Source: Candidatus Melainabacteria bacterium
GTDB taxonomy: Bacteria; Cyanobacteriota; Vampirovibrionia; Obscuribacterales; Obscuribacteraceae
Reading direction: 5' to 3'
NCBI GenBank assembly: GCA_027451745.1
Contig: DAIDIP010000014.1
Location: 1 to 64,000 of the forward strand
DNA length: 64,000 nt
Shown here: positions 16,196-35,214 of the stretch, piece after piece
How the letters are laid out: each line of letters begins with the position of its first letter
Position numbering within the stretch: the stretch's first letter is position 1
Notes under the pieces: generated by a model
Seen by the model: the letters and a program-made list of their open reading frames with translations, nothing else
What the model was told of the DNA's origin: nothing
The model's database searches: none
Translations under genes and position numbers: made by a program

Positions 16196-19100
16196 CTATT
16201 GTTGTGTTGGTGGATTGCCCCAAGATTTTGACACTGGTCTATTCAATTCAGCATTTAATGAAGTAACAGGCTTTCTTGGCATTGGGTTTACTGCTGATTG
16301 ATTTGTTATATCAGTCATTGAATTTTGAGGAGTATTGGGTGAACCAATTCCTTGCACAATTTGTTTAACTGAAGGAGTGCCTGGCGCAAATGGAAATGGC
16401 GGTGGTGCAGCAGCAGCTTGTGCTTTAGGCTGAGGTTTATTTTGACCAACAAGGGCTGCAGACGTTTCTAATTCTACGCGATCTGGAGCCCCACTTTTGC
16501 GTGCAGATGCTGAGGATGACAGTGGCTGATTCGCAGTGATTTCTCCACCAGCTGAGTCAATACTCGCTGCCGGTTCGCGAAGAAAAGCACCACAATTAGT
16601 ACAGAATTTTTTGCTCGTCGCTGGTTGTTTGCAGGCTGGGCAAACACGATGAGATAAATTGTCTTCGATTTGCTTTGGTGATGTTATTGAAGTTGCATTT
16701 GCTCCGTCAGAAAGTGTTCCTGCAACTGGTTCTGGAACAACATTGACACTTGAAAGATCAGGAATAGTGCTAGCTAATTCATCGGCTAATTTACCGACAG
16801 AGGTTGTGGATTTTCCTGCAACAGCAGCGGCAATATTTTGCTGAGTTGGTCTGACTTGTCCTAAATGAGACTGCCAAGGCACATGGGTGGGTGGTGGAGT
16901 AGCAGCGCCATCACTATCACCATTGCTAGACGGTCCGCCATTGCGACTTGAGACATTATGCAATAAGTGTAAGCGAGCAATTTCTTCGATACCTCTAAGG
17001 TCAACCATAAATGGTTTTACTTCACCGAATTCTGGATCACCAGCTGGCGACAAGTATACAAGAGCATGTTGTTTTTCCATACGTTTAATAGCATCTGAAT
17101 CAACACGAGCTACAACTTGTTGTGAGTGAATTCTGTTCCAGCTGGTTGGGAATACACCAAAGCCATTATTTTGGAAGTGATCTGAAAGACCAGGAACAAT
17201 AACAGCTTGTTTGCCAATTTCATCCGAGAAGAAGCGAGCAGTCGTTTCATCTGCATTGTGTAAGCAAACGCGTACTGCGGCGTTAGAGAATATGGTTCTA
17301 AGTTCGGATGTTCCAGAAGCGGCAGGATTAGTTGAAGTAGTGTTAGAGGCTATCTGACTGACGTTTTGCAAAATAACTGTCAATCCACCGTTAGCACCAC
17401 GGACAATAGCAGACAATCTACCGGCGGTGTCTAAGTTCAATGTTTGATATTCATCAAAGAAGGCAAACAATGGAAGAACTGAAACAGTGCCATATCTGGT
17501 GTGCAGGGCTTGTTGTAGTTGATAAACGAAACAAGAAGCTAATGACTCAGCATCTGGACCTAAGGCTGCTGGAGCACCAAATATCAATACTGTAGGTTTG
17601 TGCATTGAGGCTTGCAGATCTACATTTGATCGTTCGGTGACATTGAGTACGCTTTGATTTTTAAACATACGCAAGCGACCGCGGACACCTTGGATGTTTT
17701 TATCCCAATCAGTGTCTGTACGAATAATAGAAGATAATGTTTGAGTTAACTCACTCAATTCTGCTGGATCGACATCTGGATTATCTTTTAATCGGCGTAA
17801 AGACTCAACAATATTGCGGCGGTTGTTGACTAGTTTCATTAAGCCGCGTGGATTGCAAGGCAATGGTGTGACTTCTGAAACGTAGCCATCTCCATCTTCA
17901 CCAGCTACTTGTACAGCTCCCCATTTAAGTAATTGGGTTAAGCCATTAATATAACCGTGGTCACGTTCTGCCCAGTGTTGTTCTTCTGGAGCTAACATAT
18001 TAATATCTTGCACAATAGAGGAAGCAAATACAGTAGGAGGAAGATCAAGAGGATTCCAGTGTACTGATTCTTCAAGATCTAATGGGTTGAAATACAATGT
18101 ATCGAATCCTGCTGCTTGAGCTTCAGGCAACACCGTGTATTTGAAACCTTCGCGTTTTTCATCTAAGTTAGGATCATTGGCTTTTGCTTCTAGAGCGATG
18201 ATTACGCATGGCTTAGCTAATAGAGCCTTCATTATGGCGCGCATCAAAGTCGTTTTACCTGAACCAGATGGAGCCACAATGAACATGTTTTTGTTAGGCA
18301 AGCGTCCTAATGGTATTGTAATTGGCAAGTGTGTACGAGCTAAGAAGCCAAATGGCAATACGACGCCATCTGCTTCTGTCCACGTAGCATTAGGATTACG
18401 CTTACCTAAGCGCCCATGTCGCCTTAAGTTTGGCGGGCAAAGATATGATTTTTCATAGTCTCGAGGAGACATAAGTCCTGAAGGAGGATTGAAAGTACGA
18501 ATTGTTTGCCATGGGAATAGACGCTTTTTGTGAGCCGCAGCAATACTTAAAGCTACTAATATCAAGGTTGGCAATAAAATAGCAATAGAAGTGGCATCTA
18601 AAAACCCGTGTGGTTTGTAAGTCACATTTGGTGAACCAGTAATATGACCAGGCATACCTTCTAATCTCAGGTTCTTTCCTTGCATAGGTTGACCAGCAGT
18701 AGGTGATATACCGGCACCGATTGGCACAGCCGGACGAGACAAATTACTAGCGGGTGATGTTGGACTTGGCGTCGATTCAGTTTGAACTGGAGCACTAATA
18801 GGTGTACTTATTGGCATAGTACCAGAGGAAAGAATTTGTGCACCTGGTTGAATGAGTGGGTTGTCACTTACTTCTGGTTGAGTGGGTGCTTGAGGCATTT
18901 GGTTATAACTAGCACTTGGTACATAACCATATTGTGGTGCCTGAGAACTATAAGTACCCCTATTATTGTCCGGTGGTACTACGACAGCATGACCAGCTCT
19001 AGTTTGATAGGCATACATACCTGTTGGATGGCTAATAGGTTGTGCTTGAGGAATAAAAGGCGAAGCCCCATACGTTCCGGCAGCAGATAAGCTAGGCTGA

Positions 19101-19240
19101 TTTGGATAGCCTGGTGTAAATCCGCCTGGCAATGTTTGCATGCGACGTTCGTACTCTTTAGCACTGATAACCTCGCCGGTATCTGAATTGCTAAAACGTG
19201 CTATTGCGCCTCTTTCATTAATTTGTGGTCTCCAGCCCAT
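16196..19240 (-). CDS. VirD4/TraG-like T4SS coupling ATPase with zinc-ribbon tail
   Basis: 1014 aa. Residues 1-215 are Pro/Gln/Ser/Tyr-rich low complexity. One TM follows (about 217-237), then an FtsK/VirD4-type ATPase with Walker A APSGSGKTT (about 323-331) and Walker B LFAFFDEYQ (about 590), and a TraG/TraM-recognition-like C-domain. Near residue 870 there are two CxxC pairs (CPACKQP, CTNCGAF) that look like a zinc ribbon, inside a second low-complexity tail. Family members dock substrates to the secretion channel at the inner membrane. The single TM, long N-terminus and zinc ribbon are unusual; typical VirD4 has two N-terminal TMs and is about 600-700 aa. An AGGAGA site precedes the ATG. 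It is the last gene of the operon, 11 bp after the VirB8-like gene. Confidence 0.82.
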   Translation of the reverse strand: MGWRPQINERGAIARFSNSDTGEVISAKEYERRMQTLPGGFTPGYPNQPSLSAAGTYGASPFIPQAQPISHPTGMYAYQTRAGHAVVVPPDNNRGTYSSQAPQYGYVPSASYNQMPQAPTQPEVSDNPLIQPGAQILSSGTMPISTPISAPVQTESTPSPTSPASNLSRPAVPIGAGISPTAGQPMQGKNLRLEGMPGHITGSPNVTYKPHGFLDATSIAILLPTLILVALSIAAAHKKRLFPWQTIRTFNPPSGLMSPRDYEKSYLCPPNLRRHGRLGKRNPNATWTEADGVVLPFGFLARTHLPITIPLGRLPNKNMFIVAPSGSGKTTLMRAIMKALLAKPCVIIALEAKANDPNLDEKREGFKYTVLPEAQAAGFDTLYFNPLDLEESVHWNPLDLPPTVFASSIVQDINMLAPEEQHWAERDHGYINGLTQLLKWGAVQVAGEDGDGYVSEVTPLPCNPRGLMKLVNNRRNIVESLRRLKDNPDVDPAELSELTQTLSSIIRTDTDWDKNIQGVRGRLRMFKNQSVLNVTERSNVDLQASMHKPTVLIFGAPAALGPDAESLASCFVYQLQQALHTRYGTVSVLPLFAFFDEYQTLNLDTAGRLSAIVRGANGGLTVILQNVSQIASNTTSTNPAASGTSELRTIFSNAAVRVCLHNADETTARFFSDEIGKQAVIVPGLSDHFQNNGFGVFPTSWNRIHSQQVVARVDSDAIKRMEKQHALVYLSPAGDPEFGEVKPFMVDLRGIEEIARLHLLHNVSSRNGGPSSNGDSDGAATPPPTHVPWQSHLGQVRPTQQNIAAAVAGKSTTSVGKLADELASTIPDLSSVNVVPEPVAGTLSDGANATSITSPKQIEDNLSHRVCPACKQPATSKKFCTNCGAFLREPAASIDSAGGEITANQPLSSSASARKSGAPDRVELETSAALVGQNKPQPKAQAAAAPPPFPFAPGTPSVKQIVQGIGSPNTPQNSMTDITNQSAVNPMPRKPVTSLNAELNRPVSKSWGNPPTQQ

Positions 19241-19251
19241 AGCTTTTCTCC

Positions 19252-19866
19252 TTAGCTTTTGCCACTTTCACTAATACCGGCTATACGCAGACCATCGGCT
19301 GTGTTTTTTACCAGGTATTCTAATTTGACAGAGCGGGTTTTAGCGCCCTTATTAGGTATATTGAGAATTTGTTTTCCTTCCACGGTGATTACAACTGAAC
19401 CATCTGGTTGATTATTGCCGGCTGCTACACGGCTAGCGCTAAAAGTACTTTTGATACCAGAAGCGTCTATTTGTTGAGCAATTTGCGGTGTCCAAACACT
19501 TTCTTGATAAGCTTTGGCACAATCTTCAGTCATATATTCTATGGCTTTGGCTTGACTATCACTAGCAGTTCCAGCGCTTAAGTCCCAACCTAATGGTAGC
19601 CAGTCTTGAATTAAATTCAAAGCAGCTAATGGATCTGCAAGTGAGGCTTGAGCCGCTTGTAATTGTTGATAAGCATTAGTAGCTGATGGTCCACCTGAAC
19701 GCCCGATAATATCTGGATTGTCCATATAAGCAGCATGTGGTCTTACTTTTACTGGTTCGGGGCCGGCAGAAAGAAGGATAGTGAAAAATGCTCCAGCCAT
19801 CATGCCAGCGATTGCTACCATAATTAGAGTTATTTTGTATTTTTCGCCTGCTTGATAGTCAAACAT
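19252..19866 (-). CDS. VirB8-like inner-membrane protein (candidate)
   Basis: 204 aa. A short cytoplasmic N-terminus, one TM (about 12-33, MVAIAGMMAGAFFTILLSA) and an extracytoplasmic domain. A helix-rich first part is followed by beta-rich segments (SVVITVEGKQIL, SVKLEYLVKN), the order expected for the NTF2-like fold of VirB8/TrwG/TcpC proteins. This family links the T4SS inner-membrane complex together. The assignment rests on size, topology and position between VirB4 and VirD4, not on a diagnostic motif. It starts 5 bp downstream of the VirB4 stop. Confidence 0.5.
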   Translation of the reverse strand: MFDYQAGEKYKITLIMVAIAGMMAGAFFTILLSAGPEPVKVRPHAAYMDNPDIIGRSGGPSATNAYQQLQAAQASLADPLAALNLIQDWLPLGWDLSAGTASDSQAKAIEYMTEDCAKAYQESVWTPQIAQQIDASGIKSTFSASRVAAGNNQPDGSVVITVEGKQILNIPNKGAKTRSVKLEYLVKNTADGLRIAGISESGKS

Positions 19867-19871
19867 AATTC

Positions 19872-22703: not shown

Positions 22704-22708
22704 TATTA

Positions 22709-23047
22709 TTACTCACTAAATTGGGGAAGTTCTTCATCAACAAGAAAACGGCGAGGATTAGGATCTGGTCCTGGGACATAAACTTGTGAGGTCACATAAA
22801 AATTGATCATCGTCTCCCAGTTGGCTGCTGAGCTATTCATAGTCAGGAAAGCATAAAGTGGTCCGAGGATACCGATAATTAGGGCTATGTCAAAACGCAA
22901 GTCTTGACCAGCAAAATTAATTGGGCAACACCAAGAATAAAATTGAGTGGAAACAATTAAGCTTGCTAAAACGCCGATAAGTTGATCGTAACGTAAGCCA
23001 AATAGCTTTGGATGGTCTTCTAAATTAAGGGGGGTGACGTCTTCCAT
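22709..23047 (-). CDS. VirB3/PrgI-like small membrane protein
   Basis: 112 aa. A polar N-terminus ending in LRYDQLIGVL, two closely spaced hydrophobic segments (about 22-42 and 52-70) and a polar tail with YVPGPDPNPRRF. Size, the two N-terminal membrane helices and its place immediately 5' of VirB4 (5-bp gap) fit the VirB3/TrbD/PrgI group, which forms part of the inner-membrane platform. AGGTAG precedes the ATG by 6 nt. Confidence 0.7.
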   Translation of the reverse strand: MEDVTPLNLEDHPKLFGLRYDQLIGVLASLIVSTQFYSWCCPINFAGQDLRFDIALIIGILGPLYAFLTMNSSAANWETMINFYVTSQVYVPGPDPNPRRFLVDEELPQFSE

Positions 23048-23057
23048 TTTATTCTAC

Positions 23058-23903: not shown

Positions 23904-23931
23904 TGCTCATTACCTTCTTGCCATACATAGA

Positions 23932-26229
23932 TTAGAATCTATTAGCACTGGGGTAAATCGGGGGAATTCCCATTAGAGTGGGAGAATTCCCATGGTTGAA
24001 GATTAAATTGTAAATAGCCGAACCCGAAAGGCTTTCAGTAGATCCATAAGTCTTGTTAGAACGGTAAAAATAGCTGTTGGCTCCCGAGCCAGGGATGCGT
24101 TTATATATACAAAAAAGCTGTTTTTGTATTTGACAGTTGATAGATTGGTTTGTCGTGCTTTGGACTGGATTTATTAAAGAATTTTGCTTGGTTAAATCCA
24201 AATCTAGATTTATTGACTGGATGGCTGAATTGGAACTTAAAGCCAGTCCAGACGGGGGCAAAGGCTTTTTAGGGGGCGGAATGGAAATTACACCTAAACT
24301 TGGACTGTCGGGACTTAAATTTGAATTGCCAGGACTTAAGTTGTTTGGACCTAAGCCTAAAAGGTTTGGGCTTTGAGGATTGCAAGGATATGGTTTTGGT
24401 CCAGGGTGCGGCTTGGGGTCTGGGCGTGAATTGTTTAAGCCTAAACCTGAAATGCTTGGTTTATGAGGACCAGAAGGGGGTAGTTTTGGTCTGGGGTTTG
24501 GAGCGGGACCAGGGCTAGAATTTTTTAAGCCCAAATTTGGCGGGATTGGACTTTGGGGACCGGAAGGATATGGTTTTGGTCCAGGGTGTGGCTTAGGACC
24601 AAAAGGATTATTAGGGAAATTGTTATTAGATGAAGGACCTGCTGATGAATTTATAATAGCTAGAGCAATGCTCATAGCGTTAGCGATACTACTTGCTGAA
24701 GCAAAAGCAAATCCTTTTCCGCTGGCAGTTGCACTTGCTGAAAGTGTGTTTGTTCCGGCAAAGGCGCCAGCGCCAGCAAAGATGTTGGCTCCATGTAGTC
24801 CAAAAAAGGTTTTGGGTTCGGTGTGTGGTTGTGAGTTAGACCGAGGGGTAGATTCTTTAGGCTTAGGTTTTGTAGGCGGTAATGTGGTTAAGCTGTGAGA
24901 ATTGGTAGCAAAACTAAAGTTTTGTGGAGAGGATTCTGTAGGATGAGTTTTTGTTGGAGTACTTTTTGGTGTATTAGTACCAAAAAAATCTTTTAGGGTT
25001 TCAGTGCCACTTTTTAATTTGGCGTCGAAGCCAGATACATCTTTTAGAAGTTTGGCAAAAAAATGAGGACTAACAAAATCCGATGCCACACTTATTTTTG
25101 CATGGGCTAAAAACTGCGGCACTTGCATCATTAATTGCAAAACACCTATTGCGGTAATAATTTTTCCCCAGGGATTAAAATTGGAATAAAGCAAAATAAT
25201 AAGTATTTTTAGCAAACCAATCCATATAAAATTCCAAAGGCTTACTTCTACAAAAGAACGCAAAAAACTTGTACCAATATTATCTGTAACCGGATTGCTT
25301 AGAAACACAAGAAAAAAAGGCGCAAATACATATTGAGCTGTGAGTAGGGCTGTTTGGATTGCTTTTAAGACAATTAGATAAAATAATTCGTAAATTAAAA
25401 TGATTGCTAAGAAACAAAGAATAACAAGTCCAATTGACGCAATAATTTCCGAGAATTTAAATGATTCTGCAGCTATGGTGGAAACCGCTCCTAGGGCCGG
25501 AATTGTGCCACTATTTATTAGGTCGTGAGTTGATAAAGATGGCGGACTGCTAAATAAATGTGATATCAACAAATCTATAAATTCAATTTGTCCTGTTTTA
25601 TCAGGCAGGAGAACGCTAATCATTTCATTTGATAACTGGATCTGGAATTGGTATATTTTTGGCCACGCTATCATAGTTGACATGGCAAAGATTAAGCGAG
25701 CGATTGCAGTCATTGGACTACCATTGCCATGCCAGGAAGATTGAGTCCAATAGCGCCAAATACTCAATATAAATAATAAGAGTAATAAATCAATACTGAT
25801 ACCAGATATAGTGTTAGCTAATTGATTGATCAAATAAGATAAATCATTGCTATTTTGAGAGGAGTCTTTTATCTCTGTGAGGTCTGTATTTAGAAAAAAG
25901 CTTTTGACTATACTGCATAAATAGCCAATGATTGCGATAAGAGAATTGCGGATAAACTGGACAACATTAGACAAAAATTCAGTGATTATGTCTTTATGCC
26001 AAAATTGTTGTAGCCCAGCATAGGTATTGTTAGAAGGTGCAACCGCTGATTGATCAGGTCCAAAGCTCTGACCAAATGTCAGATCTGGTATGTCAATATT
26101 TTGCTGTGCGAACTCATTTATCAGTGATGTTTGAGAAGCATCGTATTGATGTTGCGCTATGGCAAATGGCGGCGTAAATGTAAATAATAGCCAGAGGGAT
26201 AATAAAATTAGTAAACATGATTTGGGCAT
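23932..26229 (-). CDS. VirB6/TrbL-like polytopic protein with Pro-rich repeat tail
   Basis: 765 aa. A signal-peptide-like N-terminus (MPKSCLLILLSLWLLF, ending near FAIAQ), an extracytoplasmic stretch, then about 6-7 membrane segments between residues 90 and 370, including a long central one (about 262-290). This is the arrangement of VirB6/TrbL proteins, which form part of the T4SS inner-membrane channel. Residues about 400-700 are Pro/Gly/Asn-rich and contain a 30-aa tandem repeat (GPKPHPGPKPYP type) encoded by 90-bp DNA repeats. The last residues are encoded by a 36-bp palindromic element that recurs at 33004. It is the first gene of the minus-strand operon. The VirB6 call is from topology and context. 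Confidence 0.62.
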   Translation of the reverse strand: MPKSCLLILLSLWLLFTFTPPFAIAQHQYDASQTSLINEFAQQNIDIPDLTFGQSFGPDQSAVAPSNNTYAGLQQFWHKDIITEFLSNVVQFIRNSLIAIIGYLCSIVKSFFLNTDLTEIKDSSQNSNDLSYLINQLANTISGISIDLLLLLFILSIWRYWTQSSWHGNGSPMTAIARLIFAMSTMIAWPKIYQFQIQLSNEMISVLLPDKTGQIEFIDLLISHLFSSPPSLSTHDLINSGTIPALGAVSTIAAESFKFSEIIASIGLVILCFLAIILIYELFYLIVLKAIQTALLTAQYVFAPFFLVFLSNPVTDNIGTSFLRSFVEVSLWNFIWIGLLKILIILLYSNFNPWGKIITAIGVLQLMMQVPQFLAHAKISVASDFVSPHFFAKLLKDVSGFDAKLKSGTETLKDFFGTNTPKSTPTKTHPTESSPQNFSFATNSHSLTTLPPTKPKPKESTPRSNSQPHTEPKTFFGLHGANIFAGAGAFAGTNTLSASATASGKGFAFASASSIANAMSIALAIINSSAGPSSNNNFPNNPFGPKPHPGPKPYPSGPQSPIPPNLGLKNSSPGPAPNPRPKLPPSGPHKPSISGLGLNNSRPDPKPHPGPKPYPCNPQSPNLLGLGPNNLSPGNSNLSPDSPSLGVISIPPPKKPLPPSGLALSSNSAIQSINLDLDLTKQNSLINPVQSTTNQSINCQIQKQLFCIYKRIPGSGANSYFYRSNKTYGSTESLSGSAIYNLIFNHGNSPTLMGIPPIYPSANRF
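23959..23994. repeat. 36-bp palindromic element, copy A (coding)
   Basis: CGGGGG-AATTCCCA, a 5-nt spacer, GTGGGA and then ATTCCCA: three alternating arms able to form competing hairpins. It aligns with 33004-33039, differing only in the spacer and a few bases. Here it lies in the last codons of the VirB6-like gene. Confidence 0.7.
24340..24610. repeat. 90-bp in-frame tandem repeat, about three units
   Basis: The AAGGATATGG or AAGGGGGTAG landmark recurs at 24384, 24474 and 24564, exactly 90 bp apart. The flanking AAGCCTAAA and TTTGGTC segments repeat in phase. On the coding strand each unit is 30 aa of PKPHPGPKPYP...GLGLNNSSP type. Units have diverged, with the outer ones most alike. Confidence 0.82.
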
Positions 26230-26428: not shown

Positions 26429-27127
26429 ATGACTAAAACACCTTTTTATAGATGGCTGCCGATTTTATGGACTTTACTGTTATCTATTCTTTTGCTGAGC
26501 TGGGCGGCTTATGAAGAAGGACAAGTGCAAGAGTCAATCTATTTGCCAGGCGGACTTACTTTTCAAGCATTTTTGCCAAGTCGATATTCTATTTATTGTG
26601 AAATGGAAGACGATTTGACTAATAAAGAAGCAATTTTGTCCAATATGAGATTGTTTCCCACAATAGCTTGTGAAGTAAGAGGTGCGGATCATCTTGATGT
26701 ATTGAGAGTGGATGTGTGGAGAGCAGGGGGCTTAACACGCTTCGTTAAAGATAAACGCACGGGCAAGAACAGGATGCTAATGCCTTTTGCTGAATTTGAA
26801 ATATTATGGCCGGGCTATTATGGAGTGAAAGCTGGTTTTATTGGTTTGGGAAGCAAGCGTTTTTTAATGACTGTTGGTCCAACTGGTCTTCTTGGTTCGG
26901 CAGCAATTTTGAGTCTGGTTATGCTTATGATTGCATTTCTTTGGCAGATCAGGCGCAATATTGAGATTGACCAGGATAAGAAAGAACTGGCTTTTCATGT
27001 TGAAGAAATTGAAGAGTCTCATATAGAGACAGATAAAGAAATAATTGCTGATCAAGTAGGAAATGTGACGCAAGAAATTGAGACTCAAGAAACAAGTGAA
27101 AGTGTAAATATGAGCGGAGGTTCTTGA
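26429..27127 (+). CDS. Bitopic/two-span membrane protein of unknown function
   Basis: 232 aa. TM1 lies at residues 10-28, an extracytoplasmic domain of about 120 residues contains three Cys, TM2 lies at about 152-174 (GPTGLLGSAAILSLVMLMI), and a very acidic Glu-rich cytoplasmic tail follows. AAGGACAG lies 6 nt before the ATG. The 3' end overlaps the start region of the next gene, so they form a two-gene unit. It is transcribed away from the T4SS-like operon. No family is recognised. Confidence 0.6.
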   Translation: MTKTPFYRWLPILWTLLLSILLLSWAAYEEGQVQESIYLPGGLTFQAFLPSRYSIYCEMEDDLTNKEAILSNMRLFPTIACEVRGADHLDVLRVDVWRAGGLTRFVKDKRTGKNRMLMPFAEFEILWPGYYGVKAGFIGLGSKRFLMTVGPTGLLGSAAILSLVMLMIAFLWQIRRNIEIDQDKKELAFHVEEIEESHIETDKEIIADQVGNVTQEIETQETSESVNMSGGS

Positions 27128-27129
27128 AA

Positions 27130-27963
27130 TTGAGCAGTGAAGAATCTATTTTGAATGGTGTCCGCATTTATTTATCAGGACCCATGGATTTTGTTGTTTC
27201 TCGGAATGAAGAAAAGCAATTTGGTTGGCGCAGTCGCTTGCGAAAATTTCTCAGTCCATTTGGAGCAATTGTTTATGATCCGTGGACAAAGCCAGTCATT
27301 GTTGGACAAAATGGTTATGCAGAAAATTATGAATATTCGAATACCAAAAGGGCGCAATGGACTTTTGAAGATTCGGATACTGGACGCAATGTTCGATCTC
27401 AATTGTGCGACTTGTTTTATCCAACTGTACACATAAACAGACGAATGGTAGACATTTGTGATTTGTTGATTGCTTATTGTCCCACTAATTTATATAGCGT
27501 TGGCACTGTAAACGAAATTATTCGAGCACGATCACAAAATAAGCCGGTATTGTTAGTTAGTCCACCGGTGACTTATCCTTCCTTTGCTAAATTGAGCGAA
27601 CACTTGCAAGAGCATAAGGATCAAGAAGGAGTAAAACGTTTAGAACAACTAAAAAGAGAAGCGGTCTTAAAAGAAAATCCAGAGGGAATACCGAGTCCTT
27701 GGTATTTAGGCATTTTGCCGGAGGATTATTTCTTTGATGGTTTTGGTTTTAGTTTGTATTCACACTTGATAAAAGACGAGCAATATCCACGCACACGGCT
27801 AGATGAAATTGAGGCAAATCGAAAACCGTTAAGGCCTTTGTTACCTTATCTGGAAAAATTGGATAAAGAAATCCCAAAGCTATATGACGCTAGACACAAA
27901 GATTACAAAGAAAATTCTGATTGGATGATTTTACGGCCCGGTGTTCACCAATCTATAGAGTAG
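27130..27963 (+). CDS. Nucleoside 2-deoxyribosyltransferase-like protein
   Basis: 277 aa from TTG 27130, chosen because GGAGG (27116-27120) sits 9 nt upstream; TTG 27124 would leave only 3 nt. An N-terminal RIYLSGPMDF matches the first beta strand and GPM loop of the nucleoside deoxyribosyltransferase/DUF4406 fold. DICDLLIAYCP and the SVGTVNEIIRA motif supply the Asp and the Glu expected as nucleophile. The C-terminal 120 residues are an extra helical, charged region not present in the small classical enzymes (about 150 aa). Known family members cleave or swap N-glycosidic bonds of nucleosides. Pairing with a membrane protein by overlap hints at a signalling or defence role rather than salvage; that is inference. 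Confidence 0.55.
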   Translation: MSSEESILNGVRIYLSGPMDFVVSRNEEKQFGWRSRLRKFLSPFGAIVYDPWTKPVIVGQNGYAENYEYSNTKRAQWTFEDSDTGRNVRSQLCDLFYPTVHINRRMVDICDLLIAYCPTNLYSVGTVNEIIRARSQNKPVLLVSPPVTYPSFAKLSEHLQEHKDQEGVKRLEQLKREAVLKENPEGIPSPWYLGILPEDYFFDGFGFSLYSHLIKDEQYPRTRLDEIEANRKPLRPLLPYLEKLDKEIPKLYDARHKDYKENSDWMILRPGVHQSIE

Positions 27964-28027
27964 GCGTTCGGGAATATGTCGGAAGAGCTCTACTGTTCGT
28001 TCTGTATGTTAGCCATCATTAGCCTTA

Positions 28028-28333
28028 TTATGCTGTCAATTTCTTAAGTTGTGGGAGTTTGGGTATTTTTTTATGATTCTGTTTAGCGATCCACAAATCC
28101 ATAGCTAGCTGGGCATTTAACCAAAATTGTGCACTTGTGCCTAAGGCATCAGCTAAAACCATGGCGGTCTCAGGAGTAATGCCTCGTTTGCCTTGAATAA
28201 TTTCGTTTAGTTTTGGTTGTGGCCAACCAATATGCCGAGCAAAAGCGCTTTGACTAAGTCCTAGTGGTTTGAGAAATTCTTCAAGCAAGATTTCGCCTGC
28301 TGGTGTGGGAGCTCTGTGTATATATTTATCCAT
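28028..28333 (-). CDS. higA: HigA-family antitoxin (Xre-type HTH)
   Basis: 101 aa. An N-terminal PTPAGEILLEEFLKPLGLSQ stretch and the following helix-turn-helix are the HigA/VapI signature. The protein should bind HigB and repress the operon through its HTH. AGGAG lies 7 nt before the ATG. The gene is 8 bp downstream of the toxin gene, the usual toxin-first HigBA order. It sits in the accessory block next to an IS, as expected of a mobile TA module. Confidence 0.92.
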   Translation of the reverse strand: MDKYIHRAPTPAGEILLEEFLKPLGLSQSAFARHIGWPQPKLNEIIQGKRGITPETAMVLADALGTSAQFWLNAQLAMDLWIAKQNHKKIPKLPQLKKLTA

Positions 28334-28341
28334 AATGTCTC

Positions 28342-28632
28342 CTAATGATAATCTATAATTTGCACATTATGTGCACCATCACGTTTCCATTCAAAAATGA
28401 TGCGCCATTGATCATTGATTCGAATGCTGTAAAAACCTTTTAAGTGTCCTTTTAATTTTTCAAGACGATTGGCAGGAGGGCTCTTTAGATCTTCAAGTAG
28501 AGTGGCGAATTCGATCATGTCAAGTTTTCGTTTTGCAACTTTATGAATCTCTTTAGGGATGCGGAGTATACCTTTATCTTTAGTACCATTAAATAGGTTT
28601 TCTGTTAAGGTATCGCCAAATGAGTTGATCAT
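28342..28632 (-). CDS. higB: HigB-family RelE-like toxin
   Basis: 96 aa. The sequence from [24 protein letters not shown] onward is the conserved core of HigB/RelE host-inhibition toxins, ribosome-dependent mRNA endonucleases. The basic and aromatic residues of the active region (Arg, Trp, Phe-Glu-Trp) are kept. It is slightly out of the usual length by virtue of an [11 protein letters not shown] leader, typical of the plasmid-maintenance-killer subgroup. It is the first gene of the TA operon. Confidence 0.92.
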
Positions 28633-28656
28633 AGAGTGTATTTATATTGCTATATC

Positions 28657-28670
28657 GTATAATAGTATAA
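28657..28670. promoter_or_regulatory. Candidate TA operator/promoter between divergent genes
   Basis: Direct GTATAA repeats at 28657-28662 and 28665-28670, with a perfect TATAAT at 28658-28663, lie in the 67-bp gap between higB (minus) and the HAD gene (plus). HigA usually binds such a site. Sequence evidence is limited to the repeats and the -10 hexamer. Confidence 0.3.
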
Positions 28671-28699
28671 CATAATCTTAAGAAGAGGGACTGATTTAA

Positions 28700-29368
28700 A
28701 TGACAAGAGGGGTTATATTTGATCTTGATGGTGTAATTTCTGACACACAAGACATGCACTCGGAAGTGGAAAGTAATTTTTTGCGCAGTCTTAATATCCA
28801 CATACATCCTAATGAGATTAGCGCTCGCTTTGCTGGAGTAGGAGACAAGCAAATGTTTGCTACTGTGTTTGCTGAACACGGTGTGCATCATTCTATTGAT
28901 GAAATGAGCAAAGAGAAATGGGCCAGAATGTCGCAAATGATAAATGAGCATGGCATTAAGGCTGTCAATCATTCTATTGCGCTTATTGAACGATTATATG
29001 CTAGTGGATTTACTCTAGCCATTGCTTCGGGGTCACCCAATGCTTTTATAGATCAAGTTGTGGATGCTCTTTCAATTCGTAAATATTTTAAGAGTATGGT
29101 TTCTGCTGATGAAGTGAAGCATGGTAAACCTTCGCCAGATGTTTTTTTAGAAGCTGCCAAACGGGCAGACATAGATACAAAGCAAAGTCTTATAGTTGAG
29201 GATGGAGTTAGTGGCATGCGAGCAGCAGCAACTGCTGGTATTCCATGCATAGGCTTGGTACAAAATAAAGACAAAGAGTATCCTGCGACTGTTGTAGTCA
29301 CTTCTTTAGCGGATGTAAGCATAGACTTAATTGAGCAATTAATAGCTAATAAAAGCTTTGTCAACTGA
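28700..29368 (+). CDS. HAD-superfamily phosphatase / beta-phosphoglucomutase-like
   Basis: 222 aa. Motif I FDLDGVISDT (Asp8 nucleophile, Asp10 acid/base), a helical cap domain (about 15-85), motif II (ASGSP), a Lys in the KHGKPSPDVF segment and motif IV VEDGVSGMRAA. This is the subfamily IA layout of beta-phosphoglucomutase, phosphoglycolate phosphatase and related enzymes. The substrate cannot be read. A GAGGG lies 10 nt before the ATG. It lies divergently from higB, and its position between TA and IS suggests it travels with the accessory block. Confidence 0.85.
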   Translation: MTRGVIFDLDGVISDTQDMHSEVESNFLRSLNIHIHPNEISARFAGVGDKQMFATVFAEHGVHHSIDEMSKEKWARMSQMINEHGIKAVNHSIALIERLYASGFTLAIASGSPNAFIDQVVDALSIRKYFKSMVSADEVKHGKPSPDVFLEAAKRADIDTKQSLIVEDGVSGMRAAATAGIPCIGLVQNKDKEYPATVVVTSLADVSIDLIEQLIANKSFVN

Positions 29369-29453
29369 ACTTTAGTAAAAGTTTTGGCTAAAATAACGGT
29401 CGGTACACGGAAATGCTCTCAAATACTAGATATTGAGAGGAGCAGTAAGTGAT

Positions 29454-29472
29454 GGTATTGATAATCAATACC
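29454..29472. repeat. Short inverted repeat next to the IS
   Basis: GGTATTGA-TAA-TCAATACC, an 8-bp stem with a 3-nt loop, lies 31 bp from the transposase stop. It may be a terminator without a T-run or part of the IS end. A second hairpin (CTCTCAA/TTGAGAG, 29416-29439) lies just outside it. Confidence 0.55.
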
Positions 29473-29502
29473 GATATGCAATTGCCTTGAATCCCGCCAG
29501 AC

Positions 29503-30845
29503 TCAGCAGGCAAAACCATTTAGACGTTTTTTTGTTAACGAGTCGAGCAACTCCTTTGGATCCTTTCCATCGGTAATTACATTCATGACAGTAGCAACAA
29601 AAGCCTGCAGCAAATTCATTTCCGTTGATCGGCATTTCTGTCCGATCGTATCAGTCACAAATGGTTTCATCCCATCCGGATAGTCAACCTGACACACCAG
29701 CTCTAAATACGCATACGCAACAAAGCACAATTCCCAATATCTGAGAACTGCTTGTTCCTTTCGTTGCTGACAGCTTTCAAAGCCGAGTTCCTGCTTCCCG
29801 TCACGGAAAAAATGTTCGATTGGATCACGAAATAGGTATGGTTGAAGAATTTTGTGTGCTTGTACCCAATTCAATTTATTACTTACGAAGAACCTTGGTT
29901 CTCCTTCTAATTCTGCATTGTCGTAACTGATCACCACCCTTAGCTTCTTCCAGAATTTTACTTTTGTATTTTTGGCGAATACCCAATAGGTTCGCTCTTC
30001 TCCCAGCCTGGTCCGAAGCATAACCGGCTGAAAGGCTTCTTTCGGTAAAGATTTTGCAAATGCATCAACAGTGTCAAATTTGCCTGACGGCAACTGAATA
30101 TGACGATTCTTGGCTAAACGTGTGACCCATGCCCGTTCATAGCTTTCTATTCTATCCATCAATTCGATGTTCAGAAATGCCCCATCTAAGACATACGCAT
30201 CTACAGGAATTGTATGCCGCTCACACTCATCAACCAGATCCCCAGCCAAATCTAGTTGTGTGCGATGAAGCTCGCGATTTTCTTCGTATTGCTTAACCAA
30301 CGAATGAAACTCATCCCAATCCTCTTGTGCTGCACTTGCAGCCGGCTTTGTTGCCTCAAGATAAAGCTTTTGTTCGTTTAAAAAACCACGGTGGTATAGC
30401 TCCATCCCTAACGGTACTGTCGTTCCTGGGGATACAAACGTTGCAGCTACCAACTTCTGCCCTAAACAAAAATTGTGATTGACGTAATCGTAATACCAGT
30501 AAACACCATGAATCTTCTCGCCATAATGGTGTATTAACGTCGAGTCAATTGCTACAACCTTTAGCTGCTTGCTTGCCACATCGTCTACAAGGCGCTTTGA
30601 TGTCCATTCGCCCGACGCAGAGCTCCATGGCTCCATGGACTATCGGTCATAAAATGATGTAAGCCGCCGTATTCAACATCATTTACCAGTCTTTGATGAA
30701 TACTCGCCAAAGTTCGATTTTTGGACGCTATCAAACCAGTCAGTATAATTTCAAAATGTTCACGCTGCGCAGGGTGGTTAAAGACATTTCCAAATTGCTC
30801 GGCAAATTCATGGAGGCGTGACGGTGTATATGAAATCGGCAGCAC
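29503..30845 (-). pseudogene. IS4/IS701-like DDE transposase, frameshifted by an 8-bp duplication
   Basis: Two minus-strand pieces: 30845-30585 (N-terminal, from GTG 30845) and the remainder down to 29503. They fall in different frames because GCTCCATG occurs twice in tandem (30622-30629 and 30630-30637). Removing one copy restores a continuous MTDSPWSSASGEWTSK reading. The second piece keeps DDE-type landmarks: VVAIDST (first Asp), VLDGAF (second Asp) and IEHFFRDGK with the Glu. The C-terminal YWELCFVAYAYLEL is typical of the IS4/IS701 group. Base composition is visibly richer in G+C than the surroundings, suggesting recent arrival. No slippery heptamer suggests programmed frameshifting. Terminal inverted repeats were not found. 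Confidence 0.85.
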
Positions 30846-30964
30846 AACCCTTCTCCACTAAAAAGATCAATGGAGAATAGCATACATACTCATAAATGGC
30901 CATCATGACAATAGGTTTAATCTATCATCTGCCAAAGTCCAGTTGTCAAAGCAAAGTAGACTAT

Positions 30965-30996
30965 AAAAAAGCCATCCTGTTAGGGATGGCTTTTTT
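30965..30996 (-). terminator. Strong (bidirectional-looking) terminator
   Basis: AAAAAAGCCATCC (30965-30977) and GGATGGCTTTTTT (30984-30996) form a near-perfect stem with a 6-nt loop, with A- and T-tracts on both sides. On the minus strand it lies about 25 bp after the stop of the pilin-like gene and closes the 35214-31022 transcription unit. Confidence 0.92.
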
Positions 30997-31021
30997 CTGT
31001 TCCTGGTGTTGGAATAACGGA

Positions 31022-31453
31022 TTATAGACCGCCACCCAATCCACCGAAGTTGTTGATAGCGAATGTACCAATTAAGTGGACAGCGGTTGGTGCGCCGAAG
31101 CCGACGCCTAAACCTTTAGCCACGTTCATTGCTGATTCACCACCATCCCGTTGACCGAAGGCAATTTTCATGCCTGCCATTGAAGATGGGATGGTTGACA
31201 TAGCGGTAACAACACGTGAGATGTCTCTTGCGGTATCGTAACCGAAGTCGGCCATTTGACCTACTTCATTGGATTGTCCGTAACGGGGGTCTACTGGTGC
31301 GCCGACTAACCCTTGAGCATGAGCAACTTGGTCGTAAACTCCAATGGCGAGTAGAACCAGCTGCGGTGCCAAGAGGAAACCAACGCGTGTTGCGACTTTA
31401 AATATTCGCGAGGACACAACTTTCTTGAGTGTAGATTTTATGCTGGTTGCCAT
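31022..31453 (-). CDS. Small exported membrane protein, pilin-like (VirB2/TrbC-type candidate)
   Basis: 143 aa. A long basic signal region (SIKSTLKKVVSSRIFKVATR), a hydrophobic core (VGFLLAPQLVLLAIGVYDQ) and an AHA-Q cleavage-like site near residue 46. The mature part has weakly hydrophobic segments (SRVVTAMSTIPSSMAGMKIAF and GLGVGFGAPTAVHLIGTFAI) and a Gly-rich end. Long signal, AxA site, small size and two mature hydrophobic stretches recall VirB2/TrbC pilins, and the neighbours support a surface role. No diagnostic motif exists, so this is a candidate. AGGAGG precedes the ATG. It is the last gene of the unit, just before the strong terminator. Confidence 0.45.
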   Translation of the reverse strand: MATSIKSTLKKVVSSRIFKVATRVGFLLAPQLVLLAIGVYDQVAHAQGLVGAPVDPRYGQSNEVGQMADFGYDTARDISRVVTAMSTIPSSMAGMKIAFGQRDGGESAMNVAKGLGVGFGAPTAVHLIGTFAINNFGGLGGGL

Positions 31454-31505
31454 TTTGACCTCCTATTTTGTGTACAAAATGAGTATTGAAATTTATCGAC
31501 CCTGT

Positions 31506-32135
31506 TTAGTGATGCAACAATCTGCCAGATACGGCCGTGTTTACTGCCGCACCGTTGCCATAAGTGGCTGGTGAGACAGAGCCCGGTTCGTAGCCGAAAT
31601 TCTTTCCGTAACTTGCAGCTGGACCAAGCGCGAGGGCTTGAGCAGAATTGCCAGCAACATGTTTTTTCAGTAGCTTGCCTGAAACTTTCTTATTCATTAA
31701 GTGAGCAGAGACTGCTTTATTAACAGATAAGGCTTTATCTTTAGCTTTAGGCAAATTTAGTGCTGTTGCAGGTAATGCGGCCATTACTGGAGCATTAGCT
31801 GGGGCACCAAAACTTTCTTTGTAGTGTGGAGTAGGTGAGGACTGGGTTAATTGAATTTGAGTTTGTTGGTTAACTACTGGAGCTGGAGCAACAGGTAATG
31901 AACCTGGATCAATCCCAAGAATATCTTTGCTACTTGGCACATGTCCATTTCTTACACTATGAGTAGTTGGATGATAAGAAACTGGTGGGGGACTGGATTG
32001 TTCTAAGCGGAAATAATTAGGAGCAAAGTTGAATCTGGCTCCTCTTTGTTGAGCAGAGGCTGGTTGTAAACTTACACCTATTGCTATAGCGATGGAGGCT
32101 AAGGATAATATTTTTACTTTTGTGTTTGTATTCAT
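31506..32135 (-). CDS. Exported low-complexity protein
   Basis: 209 aa from ATG 32135, preferred over GTG 32144 because AAGGAAGG lies 8 nt upstream of the ATG. The signal peptide is KVKILSLASIAIAIGV ending ASA-QQ. The mature chain is Pro/Ala/Ser-rich with a basic middle (KAKDKALSVNKAV, MNKKVSGKLLKKH) and a Gly/Tyr-rich C-terminus. No domain is recognised. It lies between the pilin-like gene and a similar exported gene, all on one strand with short gaps, so it probably belongs to the same surface structure. Confidence 0.6.
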   Translation of the reverse strand: MNTNTKVKILSLASIAIAIGVSLQPASAQQRGARFNFAPNYFRLEQSSPPPVSYHPTTHSVRNGHVPSSKDILGIDPGSLPVAPAPVVNQQTQIQLTQSSPTPHYKESFGAPANAPVMAALPATALNLPKAKDKALSVNKAVSAHLMNKKVSGKLLKKHVAGNSAQALALGPAASYGKNFGYEPGSVSPATYGNGAAVNTAVSGRLLHH

Positions 32136-32149
32136 GGCTAACACCTTCC

Positions 32150-32911
32150 TTAGAACCTAAAACCGTTACGTACGCCGTAATTCATCATGCCTGTACCAAG
32201 TAAACCGGCGCTGTAAGCACCGCCTGGGCTGCGCATGCCTGCCAAAGCAGCTCCACTTAATCCAAAACCGGTAACGACACCTAATAAATGAGAAATACCA
32301 CCAGTAGTGCGTTGTTGTGATGTATTTTGAGTGGCTACTGTTCCGCTTAATACTTGGGTTTGTGGCGGAGCAGCGTTGGACATATTTTGTGGCATTTGCA
32401 TATTTGCCATTGGTTGCATTTGATTGTTCAATTGGTTGCTTAGAGTTTGGGCATTACCTTCGTTATAAGACTGACTTGGACCAAAAGATGGAGTAGTCAT
32501 ATTGCCGGCAATATTGCCAGGCGTGTTGCTAATTTGATTAAAAGCTTGTCCATTGAATTGAGGGTATGTATTACTGCCCATTAAAGAGTGATATAAAGCT
32601 TGACGAGCTTCTTGTGGAGTTTGTTGTGCCCCTAGAGTAGAAATATTTTGTGGCGTATTTTGTGCTGTTAAACCAGGACTTTGTAATTGGCTTAAGTTAC
32701 TGGTGTTATTTACACTGTTATATTTAGAGCCGTAATTGAAAGCTTGGCTAACTGGAATTACTTCCGGGGGTAAGAATGAATCCATTGTGCCCTGGGCATT
32801 GACAGGTAAAGTGATTGCTGTGTTAGCAATAGCAAAGACTACTCCAGTTGAAAGGAACACCTTTTTATTGGATGGGTTTTGGTTTATTAAAGCTAGTATT
32901 TGCTTTTTCAT
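32150..32911 (-). CDS. Exported Asn/Gln/Met-rich protein with Gly-rich hydrophobic end
   Basis: 253 aa. The signal peptide is VFLSTGVVFAIANTAITLPVNA-Q. The mature chain is Asn/Gln/Ser-rich (for example NQLNNQMQPMANMQMPQNM). The last 50 residues alternate Gly/Ala and hydrophobic residues (LLGVVTGFGLSGAALAGM), which could insert in a membrane or pack in a fibre. It lies 14 bp upstream of the next exported gene in transcription order. No family is recognised. The 36-bp palindromic element and a 12-bp tandem repeat lie just upstream of it. Confidence 0.6.
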   Translation of the reverse strand: MKKQILALINQNPSNKKVFLSTGVVFAIANTAITLPVNAQGTMDSFLPPEVIPVSQAFNYGSKYNSVNNTSNLSQLQSPGLTAQNTPQNISTLGAQQTPQEARQALYHSLMGSNTYPQFNGQAFNQISNTPGNIAGNMTTPSFGPSQSYNEGNAQTLSNQLNNQMQPMANMQMPQNMSNAAPPQTQVLSGTVATQNTSQQRTTGGISHLLGVVTGFGLSGAALAGMRSPGGAYSAGLLGTGMMNYGVRNGFRF

Positions 32912-33003
32912 TTTTCTGTATTTTTTGTACTGGAGGGCTTTAGAGTCATTTACCTTATTTAAGTAACGTATTGATAATAGAAGAATTGTCTAGGGGATTA
33001 AAG

Positions 33004-33039
33004 CGGGGGAATTCCCACTTGCGTGGGAATATTCCCACG
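33004..33039. repeat. 36-bp palindromic element, copy B (intergenic)
   Basis: The same CGGGGGAATTCCCA, GTGGGA, ATTCCCA order as at 23959. Here ATTCCCAC (33011-33018), GTGGGAAT (33023-33030) and ATTCCCAC (33031-33038) give two alternative perfect hairpins, including a 16-bp uninterrupted palindrome at 33023-33038. It lies between two exported-protein genes. Confidence 0.75.
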
Positions 33040-33040
33040 A

Positions 33041-33081
33041 GATCCCGGCGCAGATCCCGGCGCAGATCCCGGCGCAGATCC
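33041..33081. repeat. 12-bp tandem repeat, 3.4 units
   Basis: GATCCCGGCGCA repeats exactly at 33041, 33053 and 33065, with a partial GATCC at 33077-33081. It runs from the palindromic element to the stop codon of the Pro-rich gene and is much more G+C-rich than its surroundings. Confidence 0.92.
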
Positions 33082-34100
33082 TAAAAATTCGTTTCTATGG
33101 CAGTTTGGGGCAAAGTATGAAGGGGCTCGTTGGGGTGAGCATTCAAACCTGTTTGTGGACGAAGTGGGAAGCCAAAGTCGGTTGTACGGTTATAACCTCT
33201 ACCGGCTGTGGTGTAAGCCAGTGGGGCGCCTTGACCAAATTCAGTGGAGAGGTTAGCTCCTAAACTTGGTACAGCATTACCATACAAAACGTTGTATCCA
33301 TTAAGATCCTGTACTGATTTACCGACAGGAAGAACTACTCCACCAACTTTTGTCCGCATACCACCACCTAAATCAATGGACTTATTGAAATTATCTGAAC
33401 CTTTCCCGGGAAGTGCGTTATTGTATCCAGGTCCGGTTGGTACACCGTTGATAACACCAAAACCAGCTAATGGACCAAATTGAGTGATTTCATCTTGTGA
33501 ATTACCACCACCACCTAAGAAAGACATATGTCCACGTCTTTCATACTGGGCTGTTTTTTGGGTTCCTAAGCGGCGAATCTTAGGTATAGTGCCGTAATAA
33601 CCACCGGTTCCTGCCAGTCCACCAATTGGTTGAACTTGGGTTGGCATAGCTGGATTACCTAAGCCTTTCAGTCCATACGGAGCAGGATTAACTCCTGGGG
33701 TGGAAGGAGAATTCGGGATGAAGGGAGTAAGTAATGGGCCCCAAACTCCTGGTGGCAAAGCTGTTGCTGGAGAAATAGGTAAACCGATTCCACTAAATAC
33801 TGAACCAATATTATTGGAAGGAATGGCAGGAATTGATGGAATCAATGTTGGCGGGCCAGTCATGCCTGGTATTACCGGCAATGAAGTTGGTCCTGCGCCA
33901 GGTGGAGGAGCAAAGCCTGTTGGAGCTGGTACGCCAGGTAAGCCGCTTGAGGCACCAGGTACCAATGGGTTACGCAAAGTTACTGCACCTTGAGCCAAAG
34001 CTTCAGGTATGTGAACTAAGCTCAATGCCATAAGAGTCGTAAGTAGCGTTGCGCTCTTTTTGCTTTTAGGCTCTATATTTTGATTATGCTTGGTATACAT
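33081..34100 (-). CDS. Exported Pro/Gly-rich protein (paralogue of the 34132 gene)
   Basis: 339 aa. The signal peptide has a basic start (EPKSKKSATLL) and ends near EALA-QG. The mature N-terminus, GAVTLRNPLVPGAS, and later NSPSTPG and LPPG motifs are shared with the protein encoded immediately upstream (GTTTLRTPLVPGAS), showing tandem duplication. The chain is dominated by Pro and Gly with no hydrophobic span, as in extended or fibrous surface proteins. AGGAGG lies 10 nt before the ATG. No known family is recognised. Position in the T4SS-like region suggests an extracellular or outer-membrane component. Confidence 0.62.
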   Translation of the reverse strand: MYTKHNQNIEPKSKKSATLLTTLMALSLVHIPEALAQGAVTLRNPLVPGASSGLPGVPAPTGFAPPPGAGPTSLPVIPGMTGPPTLIPSIPAIPSNNIGSVFSGIGLPISPATALPPGVWGPLLTPFIPNSPSTPGVNPAPYGLKGLGNPAMPTQVQPIGGLAGTGGYYGTIPKIRRLGTQKTAQYERRGHMSFLGGGGNSQDEITQFGPLAGFGVINGVPTGPGYNNALPGKGSDNFNKSIDLGGGMRTKVGGVVLPVGKSVQDLNGYNVLYGNAVPSLGANLSTEFGQGAPLAYTTAGRGYNRTTDFGFPLRPQTGLNAHPNEPLHTLPQTAIETNF

Positions 34101-34131
34101 TTTTGCTAGGCCTCCTAAGTGCCTGAATAAA

Positions 34132-35214
34132 TCAATAATTGGCTATTGTGGTGAGTGGTTGTGGGGGTGGTCCTGCTTGAACTTGTCCACCTGTGGTTGT
34201 TGTAATTTTGTTGGGGTTGATCATTGGTGTGCCATACAAGTCATTTGTTACTTGAGCACCGAGAAAATTCTTTTTGTGATTACCACGACTATTTTGATTC
34301 AAAGACCCAGTACCTGCTGTAGGTGCTAATGGCGCATATGTTGCAGCAAACGGGGAATCAAATGAAATTTGTGGAGGGAATTTGCTGCCAAGTTGTCCTT
34401 TGGCCATAGAACCTCTTACACCTAGACCATTATCAGTTGTAGTTGAACCTAATTTAGGTACCCATTGTTGGAAGGTCGATTGGCCATTATTGTTGCTAAA
34501 TTGAGCACGAAAACCAAAAGTTGTTCGTTTTAAGCCATAGTCAGCTACGCCTTGGCGGCTATTTCTTTGGTTTGAACCTTGCCCGGTTAAAAGATCAGGT
34601 AATTGACCATTTTGATCAACTTGGGTTAAGACCCCAGCACTTTCATAGTTTTGACCGGCACCTGCAGCAGATGATCCATTAGCAAAGCTTGGTGGTCTTA
34701 ACATACCAGGGTCTTGTCCAGGGGTGGAAGGAGAATGAGGAATAACACCACGTACTTGGGCATTGAATGCACCTGGTGGTAAAGCTGAAGCATTACTCAG
34801 TGGAAGAGATATCTGATTGCTTTGTTGATCTATTTGATTAGCTGGAATAACAGCTTGATTGGTTGGCTGACTAAATTGATTACCAGCTGATCCGTTTGTC
34901 CACGGTATTAAAGTTGGAGGAGTCAAAAGCATACCTGGATTAACAGGCATAGGCACAAAACCTGATCCTATAGGTGGTGGTGCGCCAGCAGCTGGTGGAA
35001 TATAGGGCAAGCTAAAACTTGCTCCTGGTACTAGTGGGGTTCGTAAAGTTGTGGTTCCAGTTCCTGCATACAGGCTATTGCCAAAAGAAAATCCAGGGGT
35101 GGAACCATTACCGGCAAAGGCTGGTTGGATTAAGACAATGATGCCAAACAATGGCAAAGACAGTGCTTGCGACACTGTTGTTTTTGCTTTTGTAATTTTC
35201 ATTGGATTAAGCAT
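34132..35214 (-). CDS. Exported Pro/Gly-rich protein (paralogue of the 33081 gene)
   Basis: 360 aa. Signal peptide with KITKAKTTVSQALSLPLFGIIV ending AFA-G; the ATG four codons in may be the true start. The mature N-terminus, TTTLRTPLVPGAS, followed by Pro-rich PPPIGSGFVP and SPSTPG motifs, repeats the plan of the next gene. The second half is Gly/Asn/Gln-rich with TTFGFRAQF and beta-like segments. It is the first gene of the five-gene exported-protein unit, 31 bp before its paralogue. No domain is recognised. Confidence 0.62.
   Translation of the reverse strand: MLNPMKITKAKTTVSQALSLPLFGIIVLIQPAFAGNGSTPGFSFGNSLYAGTGTTTLRTPLVPGASFSLPYIPPAAGAPPPIGSGFVPMPVNPGMLLTPPTLIPWTNGSAGNQFSQPTNQAVIPANQIDQQSNQISLPLSNASALPPGAFNAQVRGVIPHSPSTPGQDPGMLRPPSFANGSSAAGAGQNYESAGVLTQVDQNGQLPDLLTGQGSNQRNSRQGVADYGLKRTTFGFRAQFSNNNGQSTFQQWVPKLGSTTTDNGLGVRGSMAKGQLGSKFPPQISFDSPFAATYAPLAPTAGTGSLNQNSRGNHKKNFLGAQVTNDLYGTPMINPNKITTTTGGQVQAGPPPQPLTTIANY

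Follow-up and report, generated by a model that had tools for sequence, protein, structure and literature searches.

The window analyzed here is a 64,000-nucleotide stretch of a Candidatus Melainabacteria bacterium genome (contig C14; 3.0 Mb in 76 contigs; GenBank assembly GCA_027451745.1), and its positions 16196-35214 hold a set of genes that we call system A, a machine of the type IV secretion system (T4SS) family, to which its VirB4, VirD4/TraG, and VirB8 proteins can all be assigned. The organism belongs to the Obscuribacterales, non-photosynthetic, two-membrane (diderm) relatives of cyanobacteria, and its genome also carries a diverged sister, system B. All eleven open reading frames (ORFs) that an earlier note on this DNA had listed for system A are present as described (Table 1).

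Table 1. Features of system A and related features. Plain coordinates are positions in the window; the others carry a locus or genome label (G000, this genome). aa, amino acids; TM, transmembrane; dN/dS, ratio of nonsynonymous to synonymous substitution rates.
Feature	Coordinates	Strand	Evidence
VirD4/TraG-like coupling ATPase, 1014 aa	16196..19240	-	PF02534 1.9e-17, TraG-D_C 3e-8
VirB8-like protein, 204 aa, TM helix and NTF2-like periplasmic domain	19252..19866	-	26-row alignment, AlphaFold2, Foldseek
VirB4-like ATPase, 943 aa	19872..22703	-	profiles, Walker motifs, order-wide orthologs
Candidate VirB3/PrgI-like membrane protein, 112 aa	22709..23047	-	LFG motif, position, weak PrgI profile match
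Cytoplasmic zinc-ribbon/TPR protein, 281 aa	23058..23903	-	CPEC/CPSC motifs; same place in both operons (A, B)
Putative VirB6-like polytopic membrane protein, 765 aa, Pro/Ser-rich tail	23932..26229	-	homology to system B VirB6
Insertion splitting operon in this genus	26429..30636		other genera lack it between the pilin gene and virB6
Pilin-like exported protein, 143 aa	31022..31453	-	best-conserved exported part
Exported low-complexity protein, 212 aa	31506..32144	-	signal sequence; orthologs at same place; dN/dS 0.11-0.31
Exported Asn/Gln-rich protein, 253 aa	32150..32911	-	signal sequence, orthologs at same place, dN/dS
Exported Gly/Pro-rich protein, 339 aa	33081..34100	-	in 37/39 order genomes, 0/21 other genomes of class; dN/dS 0.06-0.18
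Exported Gly/Pro-rich protein, 360 aa, paralogue of 339-aa protein	34132..35214	-	signal sequence, orthologs at same place
System B operon in this genome	L066:1695-16447 (G000:C17)		
VIT/VWA proteins ending in pilin domain	L154:6389-9334, L155:6566-9715, L156:2880-5924, L157:5871-8936, L158:2553-5465, L159:3523-6444		
Weak TrbI matches near system B	G006:C13:581160, G002:C2:96888, G019:C41:107618, G009:C33:92779, G008:C1:27104, G036:C24:949		
Trb-type conjugation elements	L068, L070 (G000:C1 ~62000-82000 and 148000-168000)		
Putative HigBA-like toxin-antitoxin pair	28028-28632		
Group II intron reverse transcriptase/maturase	11165-12655		
Two polytopic proteins, ~785 aa each	13634-15982, 5774-8149		
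Serpin gene 3' of virD4 in relatives	L039:16610-17728, L045:9567-10703		PF00079, 1e-82

Among the system A proteins, Pfam clearly recognizes only the two ATPases, which had been named VirB4 (from its motifs) and VirD4-like and are now clear by profile. The VirD4-like protein matches PF02534 at 63.7 bits (cut-off 20.1), with CD1115 (2.7e-15) as its nearest NCBIfam family, and it has a long N-terminal part preceding a single predicted TM segment (residues 218-236) and a C-terminal zinc ribbon (CPAC at 867, CTNC at 880). The VirB4-like protein matches P-loop_TraG at 64.4 bits (cut-off 25.8), with Walker A at residues 545-552 and Walker B near 774; its NCBIfam scores are nearly equal for the F-type TraC family (TIGR02746, 156 bits) and the Gram-positive CD1110 family (152 bits), and because both lie far under the family cut-offs (567 and 325, respectively), it falls outside every curated subfamily. 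It is 86% identical to the VirB4 of one public Candidatus Melainabacteria genome, and its other relatives are mostly labelled Obscuribacterales, Obscuribacter, Melainabacteria, or Cyanobacteria.

The VirB8-, VirB6-, and VirB3-like proteins had been proposed from topology, and the proposals fare differently. For VirB8, structure prediction agrees: an AlphaFold2 model from a 26-sequence alignment has a predicted local distance difference test (pLDDT) score of ~95 over residues 79-200, and Foldseek matches it in the Protein Data Bank to IcmL (7e-6), DotI (5.5e-5), CagV (3.6e-4), and VirB8 (3.9e-4); TraM and plastid ARC6 domains, which are NTF2-like, rank high as well. The NTF2-like fold is common to other proteins besides VirB8, and we call the 204-aa protein VirB8-like because of its predicted fold together with its TM anchor and its place in the operon. 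The VirB6-like protein has eight predicted hydrophobic segments, signal included, and its orthologs (843-2509 aa) share a conserved membrane region but differ greatly in tail length. Homology to the VirB6-like protein of system B (E 5.9e-6) and a TrbL_4 cut-off just passed by one of 20 VirB6 sequences (2.1e-6) favor the proposal, whereas the AlphaFold model is poor (pLDDT 54) and gives no significant structural match; very shallow alignments of monoderm or Trb VirB6 proteins also gave no match. We therefore hold the VirB6 assignment as putative and moderately supported. The VirB3-like protein has the right place, between virB6 and virB4, two predicted membrane segments, a conserved LFG motif, and order-wide presence, but its hhalign match to monoderm PrgI is weak (E 0.0018, probability only 15%) and there is none to the T-type VirB3 profile, leaving it a weakly assigned VirB3 candidate. 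The zinc-ribbon/TPR protein encoded between these two matches PF09986 (DUF2225) at 0.004, and its system B counterpart does so at 4.1e-13.

As the earlier note had it, the five proteins encoded at 31022-35214 all carry Sec-type signal sequences and are of low complexity; the signals look cleavable, and there is no lipobox and no Pfam match in any of the five. The pilin-like protein is 70-94% identical in relatives, where it occurs in one to three tandem copies at the site. Its mature domain also forms (at ~41-60% identity) the C-terminus of ~1000-aa membrane proteins with VIT and VWA-like domains, which are found in at least 14 genomes and are related to MSEP-CTERM/XrtN-system proteins, with the pilin domain occupying the expected sorting-domain position. 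The fused pilin domains resemble VirB2-type hairpins in having two clear TM helices and a basic loop. In one such protein (L156:2880-5924), the segment NDTYRGMTKWFRDDITGNLVSNSVQLL, ~150-95 residues before the C-terminal end, is similar to an N-terminal stretch of VirB6 from system A (E ~1e-6). The presence of a pilin domain and a VirB6-like segment in VIT/VWA proteins suggests a shared docking module.

Intergenic gaps within the 16196-26229 unit are 5-28 bases long. The exported proteins had been described as encoded by a second unit, but in this genus the separation is due to an insertion; in most relatives both units form one operon with the exported-protein unit directly upstream of virB6, in the order rarA, two exported Gly/Pro-rich proteins, two further exported proteins, pilin-like protein, giant VirB6, zinc-ribbon/TPR protein, VirB3, VirB4, VirB8, and VirD4. 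A few genomes, such as G036 (second family) and G013, have the two units apart and retain both. This gene order, which the earlier note had proposed looking for in related genomes, recurs at the same chromosomal place in many genera, just after rarA, with uvrC, radA, and lgt on the far side in many relatives, as in the window. We assign the exported unit to the same system because the two form one operon in relatives and are present or absent jointly.

The insertion encodes a 232-aa membrane protein (u232), a nucleoside deoxyribosyltransferase-like protein (nuc279), a HigBA-like pair, a HAD hydrolase, and a DDE transposase; the u232, nuc279, and HAD genes are common to the window and a relative (G001), and the HigBA-like genes, a putative toxin-antitoxin pair, and the transposase are in the window. 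A group II intron reverse transcriptase/maturase gene lies near the operon 3′ end, and a fragment of a close relative of it is at the same place in G001. Two genes for polytopic proteins of similar length lie on this side of the operon as well, and the product of the one at 13634-15982 has a weak mannosyltransferase match (PF13231, 0.0024). In about ten relatives, a serpin gene lies directly 3′ of virD4 (two loci in Table 1 and about eight others).

VirB4 orthologs occur in 35 of the 38 other genomes of the order, and are missing from G020 and G028 (~65% complete) and G026 (91% complete). Outside the order, the 21 genomes tested from the rest of the class gave two remote matches (1e-9 to 1e-11) but no ortholog, and 243 further genomes of the phylum gave no VirB4 match at 1e-10. 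The 339-aa protein and the free pilin have nearly the same distribution as VirB4, and the three are jointly missing from G026 and G020. Every gene for which dN/dS could be computed has a value of 0.01-0.35, reflecting purifying selection, and with the order-wide conservation this argues that the system A genes are real. VirB4 distances correlate with those of RarA (rho 0.50; 2 of 999 permutations as high), comparable to the correlation between RarA and UvrC (rho 0.45). Since VirB4 and UvrC distances correlate weakly, and those of VirB8 and the pilin do not correlate with RarA or UvrC, the case for vertical descent rests on synteny and the VirB4-RarA correlation. Judged from these sequence comparisons, system A is chromosomally fixed, vertically kept, and order-wide in the Obscuribacterales. 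Two public metagenome-assembled genomes labelled Proteobacteria and Chloroflexi (L056, L059) carry the Obscuribacterales operon, and their labels are probably wrong.

The cells are diderm, as Omp85 is encoded here and by 24 of the 26 order genomes searched, and we searched by profile for an outer-membrane core, such that a core lacking sequence likeness would escape. VirB9 (CagX, PF03524) was found in none of 25 other order genomes searched, and the two matches in this genome both lie on contig C1, in two similar, ordinary Trb-type conjugation elements with relaxases. Strong VirB10 (TrbI, PF03743) matches are confined to the same elements; other PF03743 matches are weak (≤44 bits, most below the cut-off), with none beside system A, and our guess is that they are TonB-like cross-matches. 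No T2SSE match indicative of VirB11 was found among the operon proteins, and two relatives have no spare long same-strand ORF between rarA and the serpin gene for VirB11 or a core protein. PF03432, the one relaxase class searched for, has no match in the locus and matches patchily across genomes. The earlier claim that VirB9, VirB10, VirB11, and a relaxase are not recognizable is borne out for the profiles searched, and the lack of a recognizable outer-membrane core in this diderm order is well supported at the profile level. The idea of a "reduced" T4SS holds in that VirB3/B4/B6/B8/D4 are accompanied by no recognizable VirB7/B9/B10/B11, but not as a one-off, given the order-wide, apparently vertical inheritance. 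Use of the Trb VirB9 and VirB10 by system A is unlikely, because other genomes of the order keep system A without VirB9.

A second VirB4, ~30% identical to that of system A, marks system B, which is present here and in 37 of the 38 other order genomes. In this genome and the 13 others where we read it, the operon codes for two exported proteins, a lipoprotein, two VirB6-like proteins, a DUF2225 zinc-ribbon/TPR protein, VirB3, VirB4, and two small membrane proteins; it adjoins riboflavin genes in many genomes and has no virD4 beside it. The lipoprotein is 480-690 aa long, and nearly every locus read keeps its lipobox. In several genomes (Table 1), a weak match to the TrbI profile lies on the opposite strand, ~15-20 kb upstream of system B.

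VirB4 trees were built with F, T, B, cyanobacterial, FA/FATA, archaeal, Myxococcus, and Thermus VirB4s, the second with more rows, including the archaeal one. The VirB4s of A and B are sisters (support 100/99), and together they join the FA/FATA (monoderm) set with support of 96/89 in the first tree and 88/90 in the second; the best tree does not group them with cyanobacterial VirB4. A monoderm-type conjugation engine never had VirB7/B9/B10. We conclude with moderate confidence that system A probably descends from a conjugation engine of single-membrane bacteria. An independent hint of this origin is a Replic_Relax protein (PF13814, up to 7e-15) whose gene directly follows virD4 in several genera. 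A single copy is encoded by 37 of 39 order genomes and none by the other 21 genomes of the class; in the genus of the window, the gene is ~20 kb or more from virD4.

With the monoderm mating pair formation (MPF) types FA/FATA (Embleya NBC_00896 plasmid, CD1110/CD1115 families), system A shares the VirB6-PrgI/VirB3-VirB4-VirD4-Replic_Relax order, the lack of an outer-membrane core, and the VirB4 grouping, with moderate support; the Embleya order is VirB6-PrgI-VirB4-VirD4-Replic_Relax, where VirB6 is our reading of an unnamed 753-aa protein. System A differs in its diderm (Omp85) host, its pilin-like and four other exported low-complexity proteins, the absence of a relaxase, its chromosomal fixation, and the lack of any cell-wall hydrolase seen in the operon. 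The T4SS of Patescibacteria is of monoderm type, chromosomal, lineage-wide, and mostly relaxase-free, with a VirB3/B4/B6 core and VirB2-like pilins often in arrays (PMC12102498). System A is likewise chromosomal and lineage-wide, with a VirB4 and VirB3- and VirB6-like proteins, but the Patescibacteria are monoderm, with virD4 mostly not beside virB4 and VirB8 mostly not found. For Vampirovibrio chlorellavorus, of the same class (Melainabacteria), a T-type (Trb/VirB) T4SS has been reported, with relaxases and with copies on plasmids, and a role in attacking host cells was proposed (PMC4451040); what corresponds to it in our genome is not system A but the two Trb elements of contig C1. The Thermus thermophilus plasmid T4SS (NC_017590) also has a two-membrane host and a VirB2-VirB3-VirB4-...-VirD4 order with no annotated VirB9/VirB10, an absence by annotation only, but it is plasmid-borne, has a VirB11-like ATPase and a transglycosylase, and its VirB4 is elsewhere in the tree. 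The canonical diderm type IVA systems (Agrobacterium VirB/D4, R388) have the same VirB3/B4/B6/B8/D4 engine, whereas we found no VirB7, VirB9, VirB10, or VirB11 in system A. We found no description of the Obscuribacterales systems in the literature searched, which left out most subscription papers.

We favor, as the probable explanation, a monoderm-type conjugation engine that became fixed in a diderm order and acquired a new exported and pilin-like outer part, serving contact-dependent export. VirD4 would recruit substrates, perhaps with the zinc-ribbon/TPR protein as adaptor; VirB4 with VirB3, VirB6, and VirB8 would form an inner channel and take substrates, as well as the pilin-like subunit, through the inner membrane; the periplasm and outer membrane may be bridged by the tail of the giant VirB6 together with the four low-complexity exported proteins, much as the earlier note suggested for the Pro/Gly-rich ones; and the pilin-like protein could build a contact structure resembling a pilus. 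System A most likely serves to deliver proteins, and possibly DNA, to other cells on contact, rather than to transfer itself as a mobile element. A broader proposal, that A and B form a separate T4SS class whose monoderm-type engine was captured once by the ancestor of this diderm order and duplicated, with a new low-complexity exported outer-envelope and pilus assembly replacing VirB7/B9/B10, falls somewhat short of an even bet.

Several observations weigh against a monoderm-type export machine. The monoderm link is unproven because the approximately unbiased (AU) test rejects grouping of A and B neither with the F type (p 0.138) nor with the cyanobacterial type (MPF_C, p 0.378). The pilin-like protein has no profile match to VirB2/TrbC, including by hhalign, and monoderm systems as a rule have no VirB2. 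The top Foldseek match of the VirB6 model, an R388 T4SS chain, is non-significant (E 0.23), and Replic_Relax is retained in G026 despite the loss of system A there; it is therefore only loosely tied to A, the more so as the gene is distant in the window's genus. Finally, the substrate, the pilus, and the passage through the outer membrane are parts of the scheme that we infer.

The absent core could instead be that of an ordinary diderm T4SS, too diverged to recognize, which lies among the exported proteins or is supplied by system B, with its conserved lipoprotein. VirB7, VirB9, and VirB10 evolve fast, system B and its lipobox protein are as widely kept as described above, and A and B could be halves of one machine because virD4 is in A and none is beside B. 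However, there is no VirB9 profile match outside this genome's Trb elements, VirB10 is normally anchored in the inner membrane, and the system A exported proteins are of low complexity, with cleavable-looking signals and neither lipobox nor Pfam family; we consider this explanation unlikely. A chromosomal machine for DNA transfer, uptake, or release, with Replic_Relax as its DNA-processing partner, would account for the virD4-Replic_Relax adjacency in several genera and its near-universal single copy, the same pairing on the Embleya plasmid, and a VirD4 of the conjugative DNA-transfer family. It is nonetheless doubtful, as there is no conserved relaxase (PF03432 being patchy and missing from the locus), no known DNA substrate site, and a Replic_Relax gene that in this genus lies well away from virD4 and in G026 is still there although system A is gone.

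A surface pilus or adhesin, with VirD4 serving assembly and no substrate delivered, fits the pilin-like protein, the most conserved of the exported parts, which several genomes have in duplicate and whose domain also ends a large VIT/VWA protein, but a full VirD4 under strong selection would be needless for a pilus alone, making this improbable. Every engine part is of conjugative ancestry, and a transposase, a toxin-antitoxin pair, and a group II intron reverse transcriptase are nearby, as in an integrated conjugative element or its remnant; yet the locus occupies the same chromosomal site in many genera with a vertical signal, it lacks a relaxase while its genes are intact under purifying selection, and the true conjugative elements of this genome are elsewhere and unlike system A. 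We regard such an element as very improbable, and a mobile element was rejected on synteny, the vertical signal, and the lack of a relaxase. There is also no sign of phage at the locus, phage and viral collections not having been searched.

If system A is a monoderm-type engine with a new outer part, a lineage-wide, selected T4SS in diderms without a recognizable core would be an exception, and the locus shows where to seek a second solution for outer-membrane crossing. It would give the chromosomal T4SS of Patescibacteria a diderm counterpart, and for this order, largely uncultured so far, it is a candidate organelle of contact or delivery.

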